Of a stretch of 64,000 nt of DNA, positions 305 to 36,559 are shown in pieces (positions within the stretch are counted from its first letter, which is position 1; each line of letters starts with the position of its first letter). The notes beneath the pieces were generated by a model that worked only from the letters and a program-made list of their open reading frames with translations, did not search any database and had not been told where the DNA came from. The position numbers and the translations under genes were made by a program. The DNA is taken from the NCBI RefSeq assembly GCF_014844075.1, contig NZ_CP062165.1, positions 3,224,001 to 3,288,000 on the forward strand. The letters are read 5' to 3'. Source of the DNA: Paenibacillus sp. JNUCC-31 (GTDB taxonomy: Bacteria; Bacillota; Bacilli; Paenibacillales; Paenibacillaceae).

Positions 305-2173
305 ATGGGCAACAGGAAAGCAGTCTGGATTCTGGTCTTCGCGCTCACGCTAACCATGTTTGGCCTTCATCCCGAACGGACCAGCGCGGCAAGCGTGACG
401 ATCACCAACGGTTCCGATTGGCTGGATACTGCAGGCAACCCCATTCAGGCCAATAGCGGAAACATTCTGAAAGTCGGCAGTACGTATTATTGGTACGGCG
501 AGCATGCGGTCAGCGGTAAGTTTGACAGCGTTAATGTCTATACTTCAACCGATCTGAAGAACTGGACGTTCAGCAATGCCATCCTGACCAAGGATTCGGC
601 CACCGAGCTGGCCTCCAGCAAAATCGAACGTCCCAAAGTCATCTACAACGCCGCTACGAAGCAGTATGTGCTATGGGCGCATTACGAGAACGGCACAGAT
701 TACAATCTGGGACGGGTGGCGGTAGCAACCAGCAGCACACCAAACGGTAAATTCACGTATGAGGGAAGTTTTCGGCCTTTGGATTACGAGTCACGCGACA
801 TGACTGTTTTTGTAGATACAGACGGTACAGGTTATCTGATCACAGCATCCCGCAAGAATGGCGGGGCCAATGATACGATGGCTATTTTCAAAATGAACGC
901 CAGCTATACCGGTGTGGAAGCCTTTGTGGGTTGGCAATTTGAGAATGCCTACCGGGAAGCTCCTGCCGTTGTGAAAAAGGGCAATCGCTACTACCTCTTC
1001 ACCTCCCAAGCTGCTGGCTGGTATCCGAATCAGGGCGCGTATGCAACCGCATCGTCCATGACAGGCACATGGTCCGCTCTCACACCTTATGGCAATCCAT
1101 CGGCCTTCGGCTCCCAGATCCATGATATTGCCACCATTACAGGCAGCAGCACCACATCCTATATTTATATGGGCGATCGCTGGAATCCACTCAATCTTGG
1201 TGAACATAAACATATCTGGCTTCCTTTAACCTTGAATGATTCAAACGGAACCGCCTCACTGGAATGGTACAAAGAGTGGAATATCGATGCTGTGACAGGC
1301 ACGGTAACGCCACCTGCTCTTGTTAATCACGCCCAAGGCAAAACAGCTACAGCCATCTCCACAGCCTCCGGCTCATCTGCATCCCATGTCAACGACGGCA
1401 ACTATCAGACTTCTTGGGCAGCATCGTCCAATACTTGGCCAGCCTGGTGGCAGGTCGATTTCGGCGCACCGAAGACCATTACGGAGATCGATATCTCCTG
1501 GTTTATGTATAAAGGCTCGGAAGGCTATTATAAGTACAAAATGGAGATCAGCAATGATGGCGTTAATTACTCCACGCTAGATCGAACCAGCAATACCACC
1601 TATGGGTTTACGACCGACGCTGTTCATTTTACCGCCCGTTATGTACGTATCAATATGGTCAACGCTGTTCTGTGGAACAATCCGGGTAACTGGTACACCC
1701 CAACCCTGCATGAGGTCAAAATGTTAGGCCCGGCAACACCTGATGCAACGAATTACAGCCGCTTCAGCTCCTTCAATTATCCGGATCGGTACATCCGTCA
1801 TTCCAACTTCACTGCACGGATCGACACGAACGTCTCACCTGTACTGGATTCCCAGTTCCGCGTTGTACCCGGCTTGGCCAGCTCTACAGGCATCTCACTG
1901 GAGTCCATCAATTTTCCGGGCTACTTTCTGAAGCGCAATGCCAGCAACAAAATCGTACTTGAGGCATACACGGATACCCCCGCCTATAAAGGAGATGCCA
2001 CGTTCCTGAGCAGCCCCGGCTGGGCTGACAGCACCAAAGTATCGCTCCAGTCGTACAGCCAGCCCGGATATTACATCCGGCATTACGACTATGTATTGCA
2101 GCTAGATGCCATCAATGCCTCCAGCAGCGCAACGGTGAAGGGTGACGCCACGTTTGGGCGAAGCGATTTTTAA
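305..2173 (+). CDS. Secreted GH43-family glycoside hydrolase with F5/8-type and AbfB carbohydrate-binding domains
   Basis: A secreted polysaccharide-degrading enzyme of 622 residues. ATG at 305 is chosen over an earlier in-frame GTG because AGGAGGTG (291-298) sits 6 bases before it. Residues 1-29 are a signal peptide ending near SAA. Residues 30-315 form a GH43-type five-bladed propeller (GNILKVGSTYYWYGE, REAPAVV), closest by eye to the exo-galactanase-like subfamilies, in which the usual catalytic Asp of blade one is absent. Residues 335-470 resemble an F5/8 type C (CBM32) module. Residues 475-620 are an AbfB (CBM42) arabinofuranose-binding domain with repeated GYFL/GYYI strands. The likely substrates are side chains of arabinan, arabinogalactan or arabinoxylan; the exact linkage cannot be told from sequence. 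It appears monocistronic. Confidence 0.85.
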   Translation: MGNRKAVWILVFALTLTMFGLHPERTSAASVTITNGSDWLDTAGNPIQANSGNILKVGSTYYWYGEHAVSGKFDSVNVYTSTDLKNWTFSNAILTKDSATELASSKIERPKVIYNAATKQYVLWAHYENGTDYNLGRVAVATSSTPNGKFTYEGSFRPLDYESRDMTVFVDTDGTGYLITASRKNGGANDTMAIFKMNASYTGVEAFVGWQFENAYREAPAVVKKGNRYYLFTSQAAGWYPNQGAYATASSMTGTWSALTPYGNPSAFGSQIHDIATITGSSTTSYIYMGDRWNPLNLGEHKHIWLPLTLNDSNGTASLEWYKEWNIDAVTGTVTPPALVNHAQGKTATAISTASGSSASHVNDGNYQTSWAASSNTWPAWWQVDFGAPKTITEIDISWFMYKGSEGYYKYKMEISNDGVNYSTLDRTSNTTYGFTTDAVHFTARYVRINMVNAVLWNNPGNWYTPTLHEVKMLGPATPDATNYSRFSSFNYPDRYIRHSNFTARIDTNVSPVLDSQFRVVPGLASSTGISLESINFPGYFLKRNASNKIVLEAYTDTPAYKGDATFLSSPGWADSTKVSLQSYSQPGYYIRHYDYVLQLDAINASSSATVKGDATFGRSDF

Positions 2174-28512: not shown

Positions 28513-31500
28513 TTATTTCGTGGTAAATCGTTTGCGGCCTAACACACCAAGAACGATGAGTCCGAGACCAACCAAATAGAACGGATAACGGCTTGACTCT
28601 CCGGTTTTCGGAAGCGTCGATATCGTAATCCCCGATGCCGGAGTTTGCGAATCCGGCGTCGGTACTGCTGGCTTCTCCGGCTTCTGTGGTTCTGGTTTCT
28701 GCGGTTCTGGTTTCTGTGGTTCCGGCTCGCCTACACCGCGCGGAATTTCATCCTCACCGATATCAATGGTAGGTGTCCCCGGATCTTCCGTCGGTGGCGT
28801 CTCCGGATAGTCTGTCGGAGGCGTTTGAGGAGTTGTCGGTTCGCCTCTCGGGATGTCTTCATCCGGTACCTCGACGGATGGGGTCCCTGGATCGGACGGA
28901 GTAGCGGGCTCTCCCGGCTTGCCATCCGTGGGGTTACCCGGTGTTCCCGGATCTGTCGGGTCAGTCGGGTTGGTTGGGTTTCCAGGATCCGTTGGATCTG
29001 TTGGGCCCGTTGGGTCCGTTGGATCTGTTGGGTTCGTTGGGTCCGTTGGGTCCGTTGGGTCCGTTGGGTCCGTTGGGTCCGTTGGGTCCGTTGGGTCCGT
29101 TGGGTCCGTTGGGTCCGTTGGGTCCGTTGGGTCCGTTGGGTCCGTTGGGTCCGTTGGGTTGGAAGGCTCGCCAGGTTGAACGGGCTCTTCTTTGCGGTTC
29201 GTTACGGTCAATTTTTTCACATTGTCTTGACCCTTGATGCTGGAGTCGATCGTTACGCTCCACGTTGCCTGTTCGATCTTATATCCTTCCGGAGCTGCAA
29301 GCTCCTCCAAAATATAGTCGTCATACAACAGTTTCGTAAAAAGGATTTTTCCGTCAGCATCCGTTGTTTTTACGATCGGCGTCCATTTGCCTGCTTTATC
29401 GTAAAGCACGAACTTCGCTCCTGCCAGCGGCTTTGTCTTATCATCCTGGTCAACCTTCGTCACTTCCAGGCTGCCCGTTACGCCGCCTCCCGAACCTGAA
29501 CCGGATGAAGTACGGACAATAACCTCTTCCGTCGTTTCTCTAAGCTCGGTTTTTAGCTGATCTCCTTCGAGCGCCACTTTATTTTGTACTGCTTCTTTAT
29601 CTCCGGCGGTAATGAACGACTGATATTCCAAAACATAAGCCGTGGAGATATCGCTTGTGAACTTTAATTCAAACGTCTCTTGATCTCCGTCAAGGCTTGC
29701 GATGGTTAATGTATAGTCTTTTCCTTTGATCAGTTCATCTGCTTTGAGCGCTTGACCGTTTGCACTGGTCTTGGTTGCATACAGGTGGAACGAATCCTCG
29801 ATCAAGATCTGATTCACACTTGGATAGTCGATAATCTTCGCGTTGGAAATATGTGATTGCCCTTCGTTGATTCGAATGGACCAATCGATTTTATTTCCGT
29901 TCTGGGCACCACTTTTCTTCACATATTCGCCGCCGTGCGGAACCGTCACTCTGGCGTTCCATGTCGCCGCTTTATCGCTGCCATTCCACAGCTCAGCGGT
30001 ATTATCGATATCCTTGACAATCACCGTGCCTTGCAGCGATGTTTTGAACTCAATCCAGTATGCGGATGAGATCGGGTTGGCAAAACGAATGGACAGCTGG
30101 TTTCCGTTCGCTTCGGACGGTTCCGTCACCTCATATAGAGACGCCGGAACTTCGGTGCTCTTCGCAATGCCATTCCGTTCCCCCGTCAGCTTCATCTCGT
30201 ACACCTTAACCGAGTTTGGCACAAGCTTTTGTCCTTGCTTTAGGACATCCGTTACGCTCGCTTGGGCAAGCGAATCGAGATTGTAGTTCATTTTAATGTT
30301 CCACGTGATCTCTTTATGGACCGGATTGTAGCTGCCGTCTTTCCCACCGTTATTTTTCGTATATCCGTCGGAGGAGAAGCTTGCATCCCGCACTATCGGC
30401 CCTTTTATCTCGCCGTTTTCGCTCCATGTCATGGAAGCTCTGTTCATGAAATCCAGCTTGCTGTCCTTAAGCCAGCCGATGTTGAACTTCGTTTCATACT
30501 CAATCGTATAGGTCGTATTCACGGTCTTGGAAAACTTGATTGCAAAGCCGCTGCGAACATTATCGTACTCGATTTTATAATCGCTCGCAGGAACAGGGTT
30601 CCCGTCTGCTTTTACGATCACCGAATCCGGAACGAATTCGAGGCCGTCATGCGGGAATGTATCCGTGATAACTACGTTTTCCATGCTGTACTTGCTGCCG
30701 TCCGGCTTTTTATCGCCGTTGAAAGTAATAAGCCATCTTGCCGTTTTGTTGGCAAAATCGACTTTCCAGGTTCCTTTCACCAGAGCACGGCTTCCTTGAG
30801 CCGGAACCGTTACTACTTTGGACGAATCCCCCGACACGACTTTGTTCTTCACCTGTTGTCCGTCAGCGATCGTCCGATCAACCGGCTTCGTTTGGTAAAC
30901 GATTGTATACGGCGAATCAATATCCTTCGCGAATTGAAGTTTGAATCCGTTCGTACCTGTCGGTGTAGTGGTGTATTCATCCGACGAAAGCAATGCCTTG
31001 TCATCCGTAGCGTTCCCTTTGTACACCTTCAGCGAATCCGCAACCCATGCATGAATCGCACTGAATTCATCCGTGATGACTGCCTGATCTTTCGAAACCT
31101 TCTTCTCGTTGAAATTGTACTTCACCGTCCACGTGATGACTCCGGTATCCTTATCCCGGCTAAACGACTTATCCAAAAATTGGCCGCGGTCCACTGTTAC
31201 CGTAGCGGTCGATTTGGCATCTTCCATCCCCTCGCCAGACAGTACAGCGGTGTTCTCAAAGCGAGATTGCTCGCCGGCAGGCTTCGTCGAAAAGCGAATC
31301 TCGTAGGCTTTGCTAATCGTCTCATCCTGGAACGCAAGCTCCAGTTTGGTGCCGCCATTCGTTTCGACCGTATACTTGCCGGCCTCTACCTTATCGCCAG
31401 GGAGCGCCGATCCATCACCATTTACCTGCAGGTGGTAAACTTCCACAGAGTCGGCGATGAGCTCCAAGCCTTCAGGCATCGCATCCGTGATGACCGCATG

Positions 31501-32241
31501 CTTGATTTTATCCAGGGACTTGTTGACCTGAACCGTCCAATCGATCCGGTCTTTGCCAATCGCTTTCCCCTGCTTATCGATCAGCTTTCCGCCATTCGGC
31601 TTCAGATTCACGATGATGGTCTGCACTCCGCTTTTTATCGGAATGGCAATAATGATTTCCGTGCTTCCTTTCAAGACTTCCTTTTTAAATTCCGTACGAA
31701 TTTCCAGCTTGCCGCTGATGTTGGAGTGGCTCTCCACGTAATCGTTAAAGGTCATCACAACTTTTCCGTCCCGATCGACCGTAAATCGGCCAACTTCGCC
31801 TTGACCAGCAACGAGCGGTGCATCAATATCCGTAAAAATTTCAAACTGCTGCGGCAGGTCGAAGGTAAATGTATCCCCGTTCTTGTAGCCGTGTCCGTTC
31901 GGAAGCTCCCATTCGTAACTGAGATTGACAGCTGCGCCAATGTCCAGGCTGCTGTCCGGATTATATACCGCATCAATCACGGTCCCGTTCATATCGGTTA
32001 ACACGGCTTTTGTTAAAATACCCTCTGTATTGGCGACTGGCGCCGGCTGGTTATATACATCATCCGTCACTGATTCCTGCATGTTAACCGCTGAGTTCTG
32101 CTCGCTAACCGTTGAGTCCTGCATGCTAGCCGCTGAGTCCTGCTCGCCAGCCGCTGCACTTACCGTCCAAGCGGAAGTGCCAAACAACGTTTGAATCAGT
32201 AGCAGTAGCATAACTAAAATTCCACTTACTTTTTTCTTCAT
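28513..32241 (-). CDS. LPXTG-anchored adhesin with collagen-binding-type repeats and a Cna-B domain
   Basis: A 1242-residue surface protein. Residues 1-31 are a signal peptide. Residues 60-900 hold a series of Ig-like modules of the collagen-binding/fibrinogen-binding kind; each has a WTVQVN or WTVKYN start and a SSAYWIEFKT-like or TTYTIEYETK-like end. Residues 920-1010 are a Cna-B/SpaA domain (LEVTKVDQDDKTKPLAGAKF) with a likely isopeptide Lys and Glu (ILEELAAPEGY). A TDP-repeat stalk follows, then a Pro-rich spacer. The sortase signal LPKTG is at about residue 1210, followed by a hydrophobic helix and RKRFTTK. It mediates adhesion from the cell wall. No sortase gene is in the window. Confidence 0.9.
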   Translation of the reverse strand: MKKKVSGILVMLLLLIQTLFGTSAWTVSAAAGEQDSAASMQDSTVSEQNSAVNMQESVTDDVYNQPAPVANTEGILTKAVLTDMNGTVIDAVYNPDSSLDIGAAVNLSYEWELPNGHGYKNGDTFTFDLPQQFEIFTDIDAPLVAGQGEVGRFTVDRDGKVVMTFNDYVESHSNISGKLEIRTEFKKEVLKGSTEIIIAIPIKSGVQTIIVNLKPNGGKLIDKQGKAIGKDRIDWTVQVNKSLDKIKHAVITDAMPEGLELIADSVEVYHLQVNGDGSALPGDKVEAGKYTVETNGGTKLELAFQDETISKAYEIRFSTKPAGEQSRFENTAVLSGEGMEDAKSTATVTVDRGQFLDKSFSRDKDTGVITWTVKYNFNEKKVSKDQAVITDEFSAIHAWVADSLKVYKGNATDDKALLSSDEYTTTPTGTNGFKLQFAKDIDSPYTIVYQTKPVDRTIADGQQVKNKVVSGDSSKVVTVPAQGSRALVKGTWKVDFANKTARWLITFNGDKKPDGSKYSMENVVITDTFPHDGLEFVPDSVIVKADGNPVPASDYKIEYDNVRSGFAIKFSKTVNTTYTIEYETKFNIGWLKDSKLDFMNRASMTWSENGEIKGPIVRDASFSSDGYTKNNGGKDGSYNPVHKEITWNIKMNYNLDSLAQASVTDVLKQGQKLVPNSVKVYEMKLTGERNGIAKSTEVPASLYEVTEPSEANGNQLSIRFANPISSAYWIEFKTSLQGTVIVKDIDNTAELWNGSDKAATWNARVTVPHGGEYVKKSGAQNGNKIDWSIRINEGQSHISNAKIIDYPSVNQILIEDSFHLYATKTSANGQALKADELIKGKDYTLTIASLDGDQETFELKFTSDISTAYVLEYQSFITAGDKEAVQNKVALEGDQLKTELRETTEEVIVRTSSGSGSGGGVTGSLEVTKVDQDDKTKPLAGAKFVLYDKAGKWTPIVKTTDADGKILFTKLLYDDYILEELAAPEGYKIEQATWSVTIDSSIKGQDNVKKLTVTNRKEEPVQPGEPSNPTDPTDPTDPTDPTDPTDPTDPTDPTDPTDPTDPTDPTDPTNPTDPTDPTGPTDPTDPGNPTNPTDPTDPGTPGNPTDGKPGEPATPSDPGTPSVEVPDEDIPRGEPTTPQTPPTDYPETPPTEDPGTPTIDIGEDEIPRGVGEPEPQKPEPQKPEPQKPEKPAVPTPDSQTPASGITISTLPKTGESSRYPFYLVGLGLIVLGVLGRKRFTTK
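29039..29156. repeat. 9-base tandem repeat coding for the Thr-Asp-Pro stalk
   Basis: About 13 uninterrupted copies of GGGTCCGTT, flanked on both sides by variant copies. On the coding strand it gives (TDP)n. Its length is expected to vary between strains by slippage, which would change the stalk length. Confidence 0.9.
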
Positions 32242-32469: not shown

Positions 32470-32506
32470 AAACTCAAATAAGCTTTGGACATATCGTCCA
32501 AAGCTT
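32470..32506 (-). terminator. Terminator after the transglutaminase-like gene
   Basis: A perfect 11-base stem, AAGCTTTGGAC/GTCCAAAGCTT (32480-32506). The minus-strand tail ATTTGAGTTTG is only moderately T-rich, so some read-through to the adhesin gene is possible. Confidence 0.6.
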
Positions 32507-32524
32507 AGGTTTATCATGCAATAA

Positions 32525-33325
32525 TTAGAAATATTTAGCTGTGGAATAACGGGAGGCGTCTTTAATCATTTTGAATTCGGCTCCACTACTTTTCCAGCTC
32601 GCATCGACAGTGGTGTCAATGGTTACCCATTGCCCATTCAAATAAACTTCATTCCAAGCGTGGTACACATCGACGTATTCCGAATTCCCCATCACAAGCT
32701 TTGTCGGAATATCGATACTCCGCAGCATGGAAGCGAATAGGGAGGCGTAATCATAGCACATCCCTTTCTTCCCTGCCATTGTACGATTGATATCGGGAAG
32801 GTAGCCCGACAGCTCACTGGATGCAAGAGCTTTATCGTACCGGATTGTTCCAACAATATATTCATAAACAGCCTGTACTTTCTCTTCATCGGACTGGGCA
32901 GATCGGGTTAGCTTCTTAGCGAGCTGAGCTGCCTTGTCCCGTTCACTCCAATCGATATTTTGTACAGAGTTCAAAAACACTTTGCTACTGTTCTTCAGTT
33001 GAAGCGCAACTACCGTTTCCTGAACGACCTTATATTTGGTGCCGCTGACTTGTTCCAGCACAGTCACCATGTAATCACCGTTGCCCATCTGCAGCGGAAA
33101 CACTTCCTGCTGCTTGTCCGGTGAAAGCGCATATGTATATTTCTCCTGACCCTTCGCAATCATGATCTTCGTCTTGACGCCGGCTTTCACATCATATCGA
33201 ATGACGATCACACCACGGTCAAGCTGCTCCAAGCCCAGCCAATCTTCAGATTGTGCAGCTTGTACAACCGGAGTCCAAATCAGTAACATTAAAAGACCTA
33301 CTATAGCGAGCACTGCATTTCGCAT
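32525..33325 (-). CDS. Secreted transglutaminase-like (CYK3-type) cysteine protein
   Basis: A 266-residue exported protein. Residues 1-24 are a signal peptide (AVLAIVGLLMLLIWTPVVQA). Residues 25-125 form a beta-rich domain, and residues 140-255 the transglutaminase-like core with all three catalytic positions: Cys in GKKGMCYDYASLFASML, His in DVYHAWNEVYLNGQW, Asp in VTIDTTVDASW. It could act as a peptidase or crosslinker at the cell surface. The ATG at 33325 follows AAGGGAG, which lies directly after the first of two c-di-GMP-I riboswitches, so expression should respond to c-di-GMP. Confidence 0.85.
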   Translation of the reverse strand: MRNAVLAIVGLLMLLIWTPVVQAAQSEDWLGLEQLDRGVIVIRYDVKAGVKTKIMIAKGQEKYTYALSPDKQQEVFPLQMGNGDYMVTVLEQVSGTKYKVVQETVVALQLKNSSKVFLNSVQNIDWSERDKAAQLAKKLTRSAQSDEEKVQAVYEYIVGTIRYDKALASSELSGYLPDINRTMAGKKGMCYDYASLFASMLRSIDIPTKLVMGNSEYVDVYHAWNEVYLNGQWVTIDTTVDASWKSSGAEFKMIKDASRYSTAKYF

Positions 33326-33339
33326 GCTGTAAACTCCCT

Positions 33340-33424
33340 TCGGTGGCCAGGCTGCCATTGACATTACGTCAAGAAGGCCCTGTAGCTTTGCGTCCTAGTC
33401 TTTCGACAAGTTTGCCGTTATCGT
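33340..33424 (-). promoter_or_regulatory. c-di-GMP-I (GEMM-I) riboswitch, copy proximal to the gene
   Basis: On the minus strand the order is GGCAAAC, a GTC-GAAA-GAC hairpin, GGACGCAAAGC, TACAGGGCC, the hairpin TTGACGTAATGTCAA, and GGCAGCCTGGCCACCG. This is the GEMM-I layout: GNRA tetraloop, conserved GGACGCAAAGC, and a receptor hairpin closing with GGCAGCC. The 3' edge is 5 bases before the AAGGGAG ribosome binding site, so translation control is plausible. Confidence 0.85.
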
Positions 33425-33486
33425 ATTAGAGTTTCACAGATTTTTATGGATGTTTGTCCAATAAAAACAAAAAAAAGCATTTTCGT

Positions 33487-33571
33487 TCGGTAACTGGCTG
33501 CCATTTGACATTACGTCAAGAAGGCCCTATAGCTTTGCGTCCTTGCCTTTCGACAAGTTTGCCGTTATCGT
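33487..33571 (-). promoter_or_regulatory. c-di-GMP-I (GEMM-I) riboswitch, distal tandem copy
   Basis: A second GEMM-I aptamer, nearly identical to the proximal one in the core (GGCAAACTTGTCGAAAGGCA, GGACGCAAAGC). Its P1 arms CGATAAC and GTTACCG can pair better than in the proximal copy. About 12 bases downstream the transcript has a U-rich run (CTTTTTTTTGTTTTTAT), which suggests control of transcription. Confidence 0.85.
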
Positions 33572-33591
33572 GAGTAGCTTTTCATGGACAC

Positions 33592-33620
33592 ATCATATCA
33601 AATATGTGGGTTTACATCAA
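33592..33620 (-). promoter_or_regulatory. Sigma-A promoter of the riboswitch/transglutaminase transcript
   Basis: On the minus strand, TTGATG and TATGAT are separated by 17 bases. Transcription would start about 15 bases before the distal riboswitch. Confidence 0.7.
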
Positions 33621-33946: not shown

Positions 33947-36559
33947 TTACAACCCTTCGATCAGTGCCTTGATTGAGCTATCGCTCTCCAGTGCGCGGAT
34001 GATCATCGTCACAGCTTCAGCCCGTGTAGCTTTGCCGCTCGGCGAGAACACGGAAGAGGATCGTCCTTGCACCAGGTTGGCCGATGAAGCCTGCGCAATT
34101 GCAGCCGCTGCCCAGTTACTGCTGTCCACATCATTAAAGCTGGCCGGAGCACCATTTGCAAGTGTGTTCAGATCAAGCACACGTGCAATAATCGTCACCA
34201 TCTCGGCGCGGGAGATCGTCGCATTCGGCTTGAAGCTTCCGTCCGCATAACCGGTAATGACTCCCTTGTCAGCCAGGGCACTAATATATCCGGCCGCCCA
34301 GCTTGACCGTGTATCCTTGAAGCTGGCGGAAGCCGAATTCTCGCCAAGGCCAAACGCCCGGGCAATCATCGCGGTAAATTCCGCTCGGGTAACGGATGCG
34401 TTAGGTCGGAACGAGCCATTCTCGTAACCATCCACCATGCGCAATTTCATGGCAGTTCCAATGCTTCGGTCGGCCCAGTGGCCAGAAATATCACTGAAAG
34501 TCTTTTGCTCATTTTTCGTTGCGGCAATTGCTTCGTTAACTGTCTTCAGCACCGTTTCCTGGCTCACAACACCTGATTTGAACGGATGAACCTGTGCTGT
34601 CGGCGGTACTGTTGGTTCAGTTGTAGGAGACGTGGTAACTGTACCCGAATCCGTTCCAGAACCTGTTGATGGTGTGGACGGTGTTGGAATAGTGACTGAA
34701 CCGCCTCCAGTACCAGGAGTAGATGGCGTTGTCGGCGTAGTCCCTGGATTTGTTATTGTATCCGTAATCACCAAGGCGATTCGGTTGCTCTCATACTTCA
34801 CCTGGGCATTATATTGGCTTGGCAGGCCATCCACCTGAACAGAAGCAAATTTACCGCTTTGCTGATTGACGCCATGGCTTACAAGCGTAATCTCACCCGG
34901 GACAGGTACATAGTTGCTGGCAAAATTAACATGCAATGTTCCAGCAGTACTAACTGTACCTTTAACGTCGAGCACGTCATTTGCGGAAGCTACGTTGAGC
35001 TCCAGCATACCGTCAGCGGCCTGCGTGAAGTTGCCCTCGATGTTCCATTTGCCAGTTACGCTCTCCGTAACCGTACCGCCGCTGTTGACTACATCGCCAC
35101 TCCCGAAAGCAGTAGCTGTATCCCCTTCCAATGTGCCTGCACTAACCTGAGTACCGCCGGAGTACGTATTCGCTCCCCGCAGCTTCAATGTACCGCTGCC
35201 TTCCTTCGTGAGCTTGCCTGTACCGGAGATGTTGTTCCGCCAAACGTCTACGGCGTTGAAACCACCCTTGCCAGCATCCATCATGACCGTTACATCACTA
35301 TTGAATGCACCGTATCCATCTGCCGCAGCGAACAGATTGAGACGTCCCCAGCCTTCTGGATCATCCAATACCGGATAACCGGATTCAATGCCCGTTGTTG
35401 CCAGTACGGCACGGCGTTGCTGATCTGTCAGGTAAGGCTGTCTGGTTTCAAGTAGCACTTCTGCGCCTTTAGGTACAGCTGCGGGTTCGGTAGCAGAATT
35501 GATCTGCTGGAATCCGTAAGTTAAACGTTGTGTGTATTCGTCTTTATTTTTTTGGTAATCCGTAAAACGATCTTCTGCTGTTCCGTTTTGTTTCAAAAGG
35601 ATATCATGCGCCTGCTTGTACGCATCTTGTTTCAGCTGCTGATTATCTGGATCATTTAAAGCCGAAGCTGCGAATGCCGTCGCAAGTACCCGACCTCCCA
35701 TAACATCAAGTGGAGAGTGCATGCCGGCTACAATCCGGTCATCTCCCATTTCGGATGCACGTGTCAGCAGCTCCTGAAAGCGCTCAGGAACGGAGTATGC
35801 CAGTGCAATCGCGGCAAGATAAGATGCATTGGTGTGTCCACTTGGGAAGCCACCGTCGCTGGACGGATTGCTACTTTGTACCGCAACCAGTGTAGGAACG
35901 ATCACAGACTGATCTTTCCAACGGAAAGGTCTCATATATTGGTAGAATTTCTTCGCTTGTTGCGTTGAGGCATAATCCCCCCGCACTTTACCAACCAAAT
36001 CCACCATTTTACCTAGCTCAGAGTTGGAATCTCCACCCTTATTGGAATCATTCGTATCTGTAAATTTCGTTGTCAACGCTTCTTGTGGAATATACGTAAT
36101 AGAAGTTACCGTTCCTGATTTCTCACGATATACATCTGTCAAAGCACCCAGGCCCTCTGCAGCTCCATACGTCTGGTTTCTTCGATCCGTATAGTAAGCA
36201 TCCTCCTCGTCCTTGGCGGTACGCGTTTTGGAACGATCTTCTACATAATCAATATTGTAGTCCAACACCTGTGGATTCAGTTTATTACCGTCATTCCAGG
36301 ATGAACCTGGTGTCCATAATGTTAGAAACTTGGAAAGAGTACCTATTGCCGGATTGCCATCGATAGTCATGCTTGCTCCCGTGTTATTTTTGTACGTATC
36401 TACAAAATACCCCCACGCCGGCTGCGGCGGCAATGGAATGGTCGTCTCATCCGATGCGGCGAGCACGTTGCTTGCGGCAAAGGTATTTGATAAAAGAACA
36501 ACTCCCATCGCTGCGGCGAACAATCTCTTCTTGTTGCTTTTGATCACTTTCGTTTTCAA
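33947..36559 (-). CDS. Surface acid phosphatase (PAP2) fused to autotransporter-type beta-strand repeat and three SLH domains
   Basis: An 870-residue cell-wall-associated protein. Residues 1-34 are a signal peptide. Residues 40-330 form a class A/PAP2 phosphatase with the three signature blocks: KKFYQYMRPFRW, GGFPSGHTNASYLAAIAL, and DDRIVAGMHSPLDVMGGR. Residues 415-610 contain a beta-helix segment with the repeat GTGKLTKEGSGTLKLRGANT and YSGGTQVSAGTL. Residues 612-670 are a Thr/Pro linker and residues 690-870 three SLH domains (SDISGHWADRSIGTAMKLRM, then two more) that bind wall polysaccharide. It should release phosphate from organic phosphates outside the cell. Confidence 0.9.
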   Translation of the reverse strand: MKTKVIKSNKKRLFAAAMGVVLLSNTFAASNVLAASDETTIPLPPQPAWGYFVDTYKNNTGASMTIDGNPAIGTLSKFLTLWTPGSSWNDGNKLNPQVLDYNIDYVEDRSKTRTAKDEEDAYYTDRRNQTYGAAEGLGALTDVYREKSGTVTSITYIPQEALTTKFTDTNDSNKGGDSNSELGKMVDLVGKVRGDYASTQQAKKFYQYMRPFRWKDQSVIVPTLVAVQSSNPSSDGGFPSGHTNASYLAAIALAYSVPERFQELLTRASEMGDDRIVAGMHSPLDVMGGRVLATAFAASALNDPDNQQLKQDAYKQAHDILLKQNGTAEDRFTDYQKNKDEYTQRLTYGFQQINSATEPAAVPKGAEVLLETRQPYLTDQQRRAVLATTGIESGYPVLDDPEGWGRLNLFAAADGYGAFNSDVTVMMDAGKGGFNAVDVWRNNISGTGKLTKEGSGTLKLRGANTYSGGTQVSAGTLEGDTATAFGSGDVVNSGGTVTESVTGKWNIEGNFTQAADGMLELNVASANDVLDVKGTVSTAGTLHVNFASNYVPVPGEITLVSHGVNQQSGKFASVQVDGLPSQYNAQVKYESNRIALVITDTITNPGTTPTTPSTPGTGGGSVTIPTPSTPSTGSGTDSGTVTTSPTTEPTVPPTAQVHPFKSGVVSQETVLKTVNEAIAATKNEQKTFSDISGHWADRSIGTAMKLRMVDGYENGSFRPNASVTRAEFTAMIARAFGLGENSASASFKDTRSSWAAGYISALADKGVITGYADGSFKPNATISRAEMVTIIARVLDLNTLANGAPASFNDVDSSNWAAAAIAQASSANLVQGRSSSVFSPSGKATRAEAVTMIIRALESDSSIKALIEGL

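Follow-up and report, generated by a model that had tools for sequence, protein, structure and literature searches.

The 64,000-nucleotide stretch of Paenibacillus sp. JNUCC-31 DNA analyzed here (the window) carries, all on the minus strand, two predicted c-di-GMP-I aptamers in tandem, a gene for a predicted secreted transglutaminase-like cysteine protein and a gene for an LPXTG adhesin. The leader opens with a predicted sigma-A promoter at 33592..33620 (TTGATG-17-TATGAT with a TG before the -10), and transcription is predicted to start at ~33585. The first-pass annotation had called this a good promoter shared by both aptamers; the match itself stands (9/12), and because the scan returned 17 sites of this kind within 8.5 kb (11.0 ± 3.5 in shuffled sequence), it is no strong evidence alone. 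The distal aptamer lies at 33486..33573. Just 5' of it, the strand AAAAGC (33577..33582) can pair with GCUUUU at 33478-33473 as an extension of P1, and 3' of it comes GC with a run of eight U (33469..33478, the U-run at 33476-33469), presumably the 3' arm and U-tract of a terminator. The proximal aptamer, of the GGC subtype, is located at 33338..33425. It is preceded by the strand AAACUC (33429..33434), which is complementary to GAGUUU at 33336-33331 and would serve both as the 5' strand of a P1 extension and as an anti-Shine-Dalgarno (anti-SD) strand, and followed by the SD sequence AAGGGAG (33340-33334) and its spacer, together 33331..33340 and pairable with that strand. The enzyme gene (32525..33325, start codon at 33325) encodes a 266 aa protein and is followed by a hairpin resembling an intrinsic terminator, with a weak U tail (32479..32507). 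Further on, the adhesin gene (28513..32241) encodes a protein with a Big_8 domain, five Collagen_bind domains, SpaA and an LPKTG motif; it is a candidate substrate of the enzyme, contains all five Collagen_bind matches of the genome and apparently forms a separate transcription unit. Upstream of the leader, the gene at 33947-36559 (-) encodes a PAP2-type phosphatase with a passenger-type repeat and three SLH domains.

Covariance-model searches assign both leader copies to the predicted c-di-GMP-I (GEMM-I) class. The distal copy scored 80.8 bits with RF01051 (cut-off 35, cmscan), while the proximal one passed both RF01051 (66.5 bits against the same cut-off) and RF03167, the c-di-GMP-I-GGC model (63.4 bits against 59). 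A search of the whole 7.55-Mb genome with RF01051 returned these two copies only. Additionally, the stems of the aptamer covary across the genus, with 60 cells changed on both sides against 15.6 in shuffles (24 genus aptamers, 23 of them distinct). The two tandem aptamers proposed earlier from the letters of the window are hence borne out by the Rfam search, and the GEMM-I motifs, the U-run behind the distal aptamer and the ribosome-binding site behind the proximal one are indeed present in the sequence.

The downstream gene was likewise read correctly as that of a transglutaminase-like protein, predicted to be secreted, with an LPXTG adhesin gene behind it. The enzyme matches Transglut_core (PF01841) with an E-value of 1.4e-23, its signal peptide can be seen by eye, and residues C190, H222 and D237 are invariant in an alignment of 49 enzyme sequences; domain score and Cys-His-Asp triad together place it in the predicted transglutaminase-like superfamily. 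At an E-value of 1e-3 its only Pfam matches were PF01841 and PF04473, and the profile of the LapG family (PF06035) was not among them. The catalytic domain of its AlphaFold model shares the LapG fold. PPEP metalloproteases are defined by the HExxH zinc motif; this motif is absent from the enzyme, where a single histidine lies within YHAWNE. An enzyme start at the in-frame ATGs at 33364 and 33358, within the aptamer, was considered and rejected, as the reading frame that crosses the aptamer is not conserved among loci. In one assembly (L088, genome G059), the usual signal-peptide start and the 5' end of the enzyme gene are in different reading frames.

The enzyme was found in 19/75 genomes of the genus at an E-value of 3.6e-84 or better, and two aptamers lie just upstream of it in 17 of these genomes and one in the other 2. 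At 1e-28 or better it is present in 171/394 genomes of the family, belonging to 9/19 genera. From 78 of these 171 genomes we examined 79 loci (genome G123 contributes two), namely those of all 19 genus genomes and 60 places in other genera, hand-picked for contig extent and for spread over the nine genera. The loci were scanned with a model derived from the 24 genus aptamers; one further locus (L090, genome G037), which contains just part of the enzyme gene and no aptamer, was left out of the counts. A c-di-GMP-I aptamer was found just upstream of the enzyme gene in 79/79 loci from all nine genera, as a pair in 61, so that the comparison across relatives suggested at first pass upholds the arrangement as more than chance. 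Judged by this distribution, the tandem aptamer-enzyme arrangement is old within the family. In 17 of the 18 loci with a single aptamer this is of the proximal type; that of L173 is classed as distal because of its U-run. No triplets occur among the 79 loci. A second enzyme copy is present in five loci, and two of these copies are without their own aptamer, which leaves 82/84 genes with one. Specifically, L167, L168 and L170-L172 carry two enzyme genes in a row, the second having its own single aptamer in L168, L171 and L172 and none in L167 and L170. Named relatives belong mostly to Paenibacillus, and also to Cohnella, Fontibacillus and Gorillibacterium. Within the stretches scanned, no aptamer was found near the Acetoanaerobium noterae relative, at two Clostridia loci or at one Fibrobacteres locus. 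The A. noterae protein (L207:5989-6780) is 40% identical and its gene stands directly behind a pilT-like gene, at what by eye appears to be the end of a type IV pilus row.

A class-wide aptamer survey, which served only for viewing other platforms, gave a match in 157/299 genomes. In four genomes a distal-type aptamer is present without the enzyme gene (L213-L216, from G028, G026, G008 and G025). In L213-L215 this orphan aptamer is followed by a terminator hairpin of the kind found behind the enzyme gene and then by an LPXTG adhesin, an order that resembles the scar of a deletion in which the enzyme gene was lost cleanly; L216 also has such a hairpin behind the aptamer, with the adhesin beginning ~1.8 kb further on. 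A gene for a GH26+PA14 protein (L218, 2148-3749; Pfam was run for L218 only) is also preceded by a c-di-GMP-I aptamer, at 2053-2133 (+), and a similar arrangement occurs in L217, L219 and L220. Its SD sequence lies directly 3' of the aptamer and a 5' strand CUUCC is pairable with GGAAG, a leader that would repeat the proximal output layout for a second, matrix-type hydrolase; a Wzz-type gene stands further downstream. Finally, a weak c-di-GMP-I-like match (40 bits) at L221:3244-3329 (+) lies upstream of an ORF with VWA, GBS104-like and MucBP domains in its first half, a pilin- or adhesin-like protein.

Concerning the output of the distal copy, a U-run of five or more begins 9 nt after the aptamer in 60/61 copies and 7 nt after it in the remaining one. 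Nine nucleotides are too few for a terminator hairpin of its own, and therefore the 3' arm must pair backwards. Two options are available. The arm can pair with the 3' strand of the aptamer (AGCC; 89.6% of cells paired), which would exclude the bound aptamer and make an ON switch. Alternatively, it can pair with AAAGC immediately upstream of the aptamer (86.1% of cells paired), which would form a helix under P1 that the ligand should favor. Covariation is absent in both stems because both strands are nearly invariant; AAGC occurs in 54/61 of the distal 5' flanks, in the same register in 47/54 distinct ones. The hairpin overlapping the aptamer is not stronger than shuffles (-4.99 against -4.55 kcal/mol; 2/38 loci at 5% or better) and was rejected as the sole distal terminator. 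The 5'-flank helix, in tests that relatedness inflates, beats shuffled strands (-6.76 against -3.01 kcal/mol), is not stronger than with the strands of other loci (-6.49 kcal/mol; 349/5000 permutations) and has little more unbroken pairs than shuffles (7.20 against 6.15). Among loci with a deviating sequence, inspection by eye shows that this helix can still form in L114, L135, L167, L173 and the L078-L080/L082/L083 group, both strands being altered in L114, L167 and L173; in the L081/L085-L089 group, which has AGAC for AAGC, it is not evident (-4.0 kcal/mol). Taken together, these features weakly point to an OFF switch.

The proximal copy is of a different build. Its SD sequence starts at offset 0 or -1 from the aptamer in 81/81 copies, and the commonest distance from aptamer to start codon is 13 nt (49/81). 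Six or more consecutive U occur within 14 nt 3' of the aptamer in only 14/81 copies, where they overlap the SD spacer, which suggests that there is no second terminator behind this copy. The helix between the anti-SD strand and the SD region reached -7.95 kcal/mol with the leaders' own partners, -6.01 with partners from other clades and -3.56 with shuffled ones (68 distinct), own partners being better than swapped ones in 6/8 clades; 0/5000 permutations were as low (67 distinct), and 50/71 distinct flanks had eight or more unbroken pairs against 12.4% of shuffles, all figures that relatedness inflates. In a fixed register (57 sequences), 73.0% of cells pair against 70.0 ± 0.9 (0/500) and 49 cells are changed on both sides against 32.8 ± 4.6 (0/500), while pairs changed on both sides (7 against 6.8) and pair types (25 against 24.2) do not stand out, in a test that relatedness inflates as well and that is weakened by a one-position shift of the register between clades. 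Changes in the anti-SD strand thus appear to covary in part with the SD region. Since the anti-SD helix continues P1, the ligand should strengthen it, and binding of c-di-GMP at the proximal copy should hide the ribosome site (OFF). Folding with ViennaRNA gave an about equal probability that the SD is unpaired with and without the aptamer held (0.35 vs 0.32; 79/81 leaders), so that a switch is not shown by folding alone, and polarity from folding energies was rejected because the unconstrained and the aptamer-held ensembles do not differ. Scrambling the anti-SD strand opened the SD in the same program (0.48 unpaired; within the window 0.61 vs 0.20). The second aptamer is accordingly positioned like that of a bi-mechanism tandem and is predicted to control the ribosome site. 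The transcriptional-looking and the translational-looking output that the first-pass annotation had distinguished are conserved over the nine genera.

The switch appears to serve the enzyme gene and not the adhesin gene, as a terminator-like hairpin closes the former. A U-tailed hairpin of -8 kcal/mol or better lies at most 130 nt from the enzyme stop in 73/79 loci against 28/316 shuffled stretches, and one of -12 or better in 71/79 against 3/316. For this reason the adhesin as a co-target in one operon was rejected, and the earlier idea that the switch targets the adhesin as well was not sustained; furthermore, same-strand LPXTG or sortase genes stand only upstream of the switch in 31/79 loci. 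In the window, the weak U tail of the hairpin at 32507-32479 may allow some read-through into the adhesin gene. With regular expressions, in stretches of 5-13 kb, LPXTG or sortase genes were found nearby in 70/79 loci: LPXTG genes on the same strand lie downstream in 38 loci and upstream in 10, and sortase genes in 21 and 26, respectively. Collagen_bind proteins occur in 19/19 enzyme-bearing and 31/56 other genomes of the genus. In L161 (5122-10076) and L139 (5141-10139) the riboswitch-enzyme unit is located directly before an rRNA operon. Contigs end soon after the enzyme gene in many drafts among the 171 genomes, perhaps owing to the rRNA operon; repetitive adhesins as the cause of these contig ends were rejected, since an rRNA operon follows in L161 and L139 at least.

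We propose, with a probability of roughly 45%, a coherent OFF/OFF leader through which an enzyme made at low c-di-GMP acts on the neighboring sortase-anchored adhesin. Binding of c-di-GMP would stabilize P1 and hence the helix under it. At the distal copy this would likely favor termination of transcription first, and at the proximal copy c-di-GMP would then hide the ribosome-binding site and stop translation, both copies presumably acting in the same direction. When c-di-GMP falls, the enzyme would be made and secreted, and it may cut, release or remodel the sortase-anchored adhesin, a guess from neighborhood and fold. This would amount to the logic of LapG, in which an enzyme is set against an adhesin at low c-di-GMP, realized with RNA in a Gram-positive bacterium. 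Such LapG-like logic, raised at first pass, gains support because the proximal copy looks OFF, which implies that the enzyme is made at low c-di-GMP, and from the shared fold of the modeled catalytic domain. The OFF/OFF arrangement was preferred because of the proximal layout and because loci with a single copy retain one type or the other, which would be expected of two copies with the same function.

Ranking next, and rather unlikely, is a leader with both copies ON, pseudo-cooperative as at csp of Bacillus thuringiensis, in which c-di-GMP would prevent the distal terminator and free the ribosome site, and a sessile-state enzyme would help to assemble or cross-link sortase-anchored adhesins. 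The B. thuringiensis switches Bc2 and Bc3-5 are ON by experiment, and in the distal copy both the complementarity of the 3' arm to AGCC and a gap too short for an independent hairpin agree with such a leader. However, the strand able to pair with the proximal ribosome site extends P1, which the ligand should stabilize, and the hairpin overlapping the aptamer does not rise above shuffles.

Placed behind it, and improbable to our judgment, is an opposed pair with a distal ON switch at transcription and a proximal OFF switch at translation, so that enzyme synthesis would be confined to intermediate or falling c-di-GMP (band-pass). The distal layout permits ON and the proximal one suggests OFF, and incoherent transcription-translation control has been described for the single c-di-GMP-I switch Bc1 (PMC11218506). 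If copies had opposite tasks, however, it would be odd that 17/18 single-copy loci have the proximal type alone and one the distal type alone. Were it true, the leader would yield a detachment pulse against the sortase-anchored adhesin, a band-pass from two copies of the same aptamer. Equally improbable is that the leader sharply switches a housekeeping wall enzyme and that the adhesin next door is incidental, as could be read from the 9/79 loci with no LPXTG or sortase gene nearby, from the rRNA operon next downstream in L161 (one of the nine) and L139, with similar spurious reading frames in other loci, and from the aptamer-free Clostridia relative behind a gene that by eye is pilT-like; against it stand the LPXTG or sortase genes in 70/79 stretches and the Collagen_bind proteins in all 19 enzyme-bearing genus genomes.

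Among known systems, PPEP-1 (CD2830) of C. difficile is under a single-aptamer c-di-GMP OFF riboswitch and shares with the present candidate the theme, predicted here, of a secreted enzyme acting on LPXTG proteins, but it is a metalloprotease of another kind than the transglutaminase-like enzyme. LapG is controlled after synthesis by LapD and belongs to another Pfam family, whereas control here would be exerted by RNA at synthesis. Common to LapG/LapD/LapA (PMC3032545; structures 4fgo, 4u65) and to the present locus are the transglutaminase-like cysteine fold and, as a prediction here, an enzyme against an adhesin at low c-di-GMP. The pairing of tandem c-di-GMP-I aptamers with COG1305 genes in Bacillota is already known from a tabulation (94% doublets, 6% triplets, 1.08e-34; PMC12452182), whose main text names transglutaminase once (Table 2) and adhesin or collagen nowhere. 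That group shares aptamer class, tandem arrangement, enzyme class and phylum with ours; it includes triplets, whereas none occur in our 79 loci, and its main-text passages give no output mechanism. The two-level output, the SD-hiding helix and the sortase/adhesin setting proposed here are absent from the passages cited of this and the other papers. In another survey (PMC9481103), 347 c-di-GMP-I doublets are filed as pseudo-cooperative and, in the passages cited, bi-mechanism tandems appear only for SAM classes; its authors state that not all tandems were evaluated for mechanism. The SAM-II/SAM-V tandem described there likewise has a first aptamer acting on transcription and a second on translation with one ligand, but consists of two different aptamer classes, whereas here one class occurs twice. 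Bc2-cap and Bc3-5-csp of B. thuringiensis (PMC4933901, PMC4759541) are ON switches with terminators, Bc3-5 being a tandem; they share the c-di-GMP-I link to Gram-positive surface proteins, but there the surface proteins themselves are the targets, and the word transglutaminase is absent from the main texts. Both an ON switch with a terminator that excludes the aptamer and an OFF switch with one able to coexist with it are described in PMC9262584. Among the open-access papers searched, we found none on the mechanism of the transglutaminase-like enzyme's riboswitch, and none on TglA or on a transglutaminase-like protein with sortase and adhesin in Paenibacillus.

The locus would give a regulatory assignment for an enzyme family present in 171/394 of the genomes searched, and it offers a concrete target on which control of sortase-anchored adhesins by c-di-GMP can be tested in Paenibacillaceae. 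If the OFF/OFF leader proposed here is true, a tandem of one aptamer class would act on transcription first and on translation second, and Gram-positive soil bacteria would run the logic of LapG with nothing but an RNA leader, which would act on expression at two levels.
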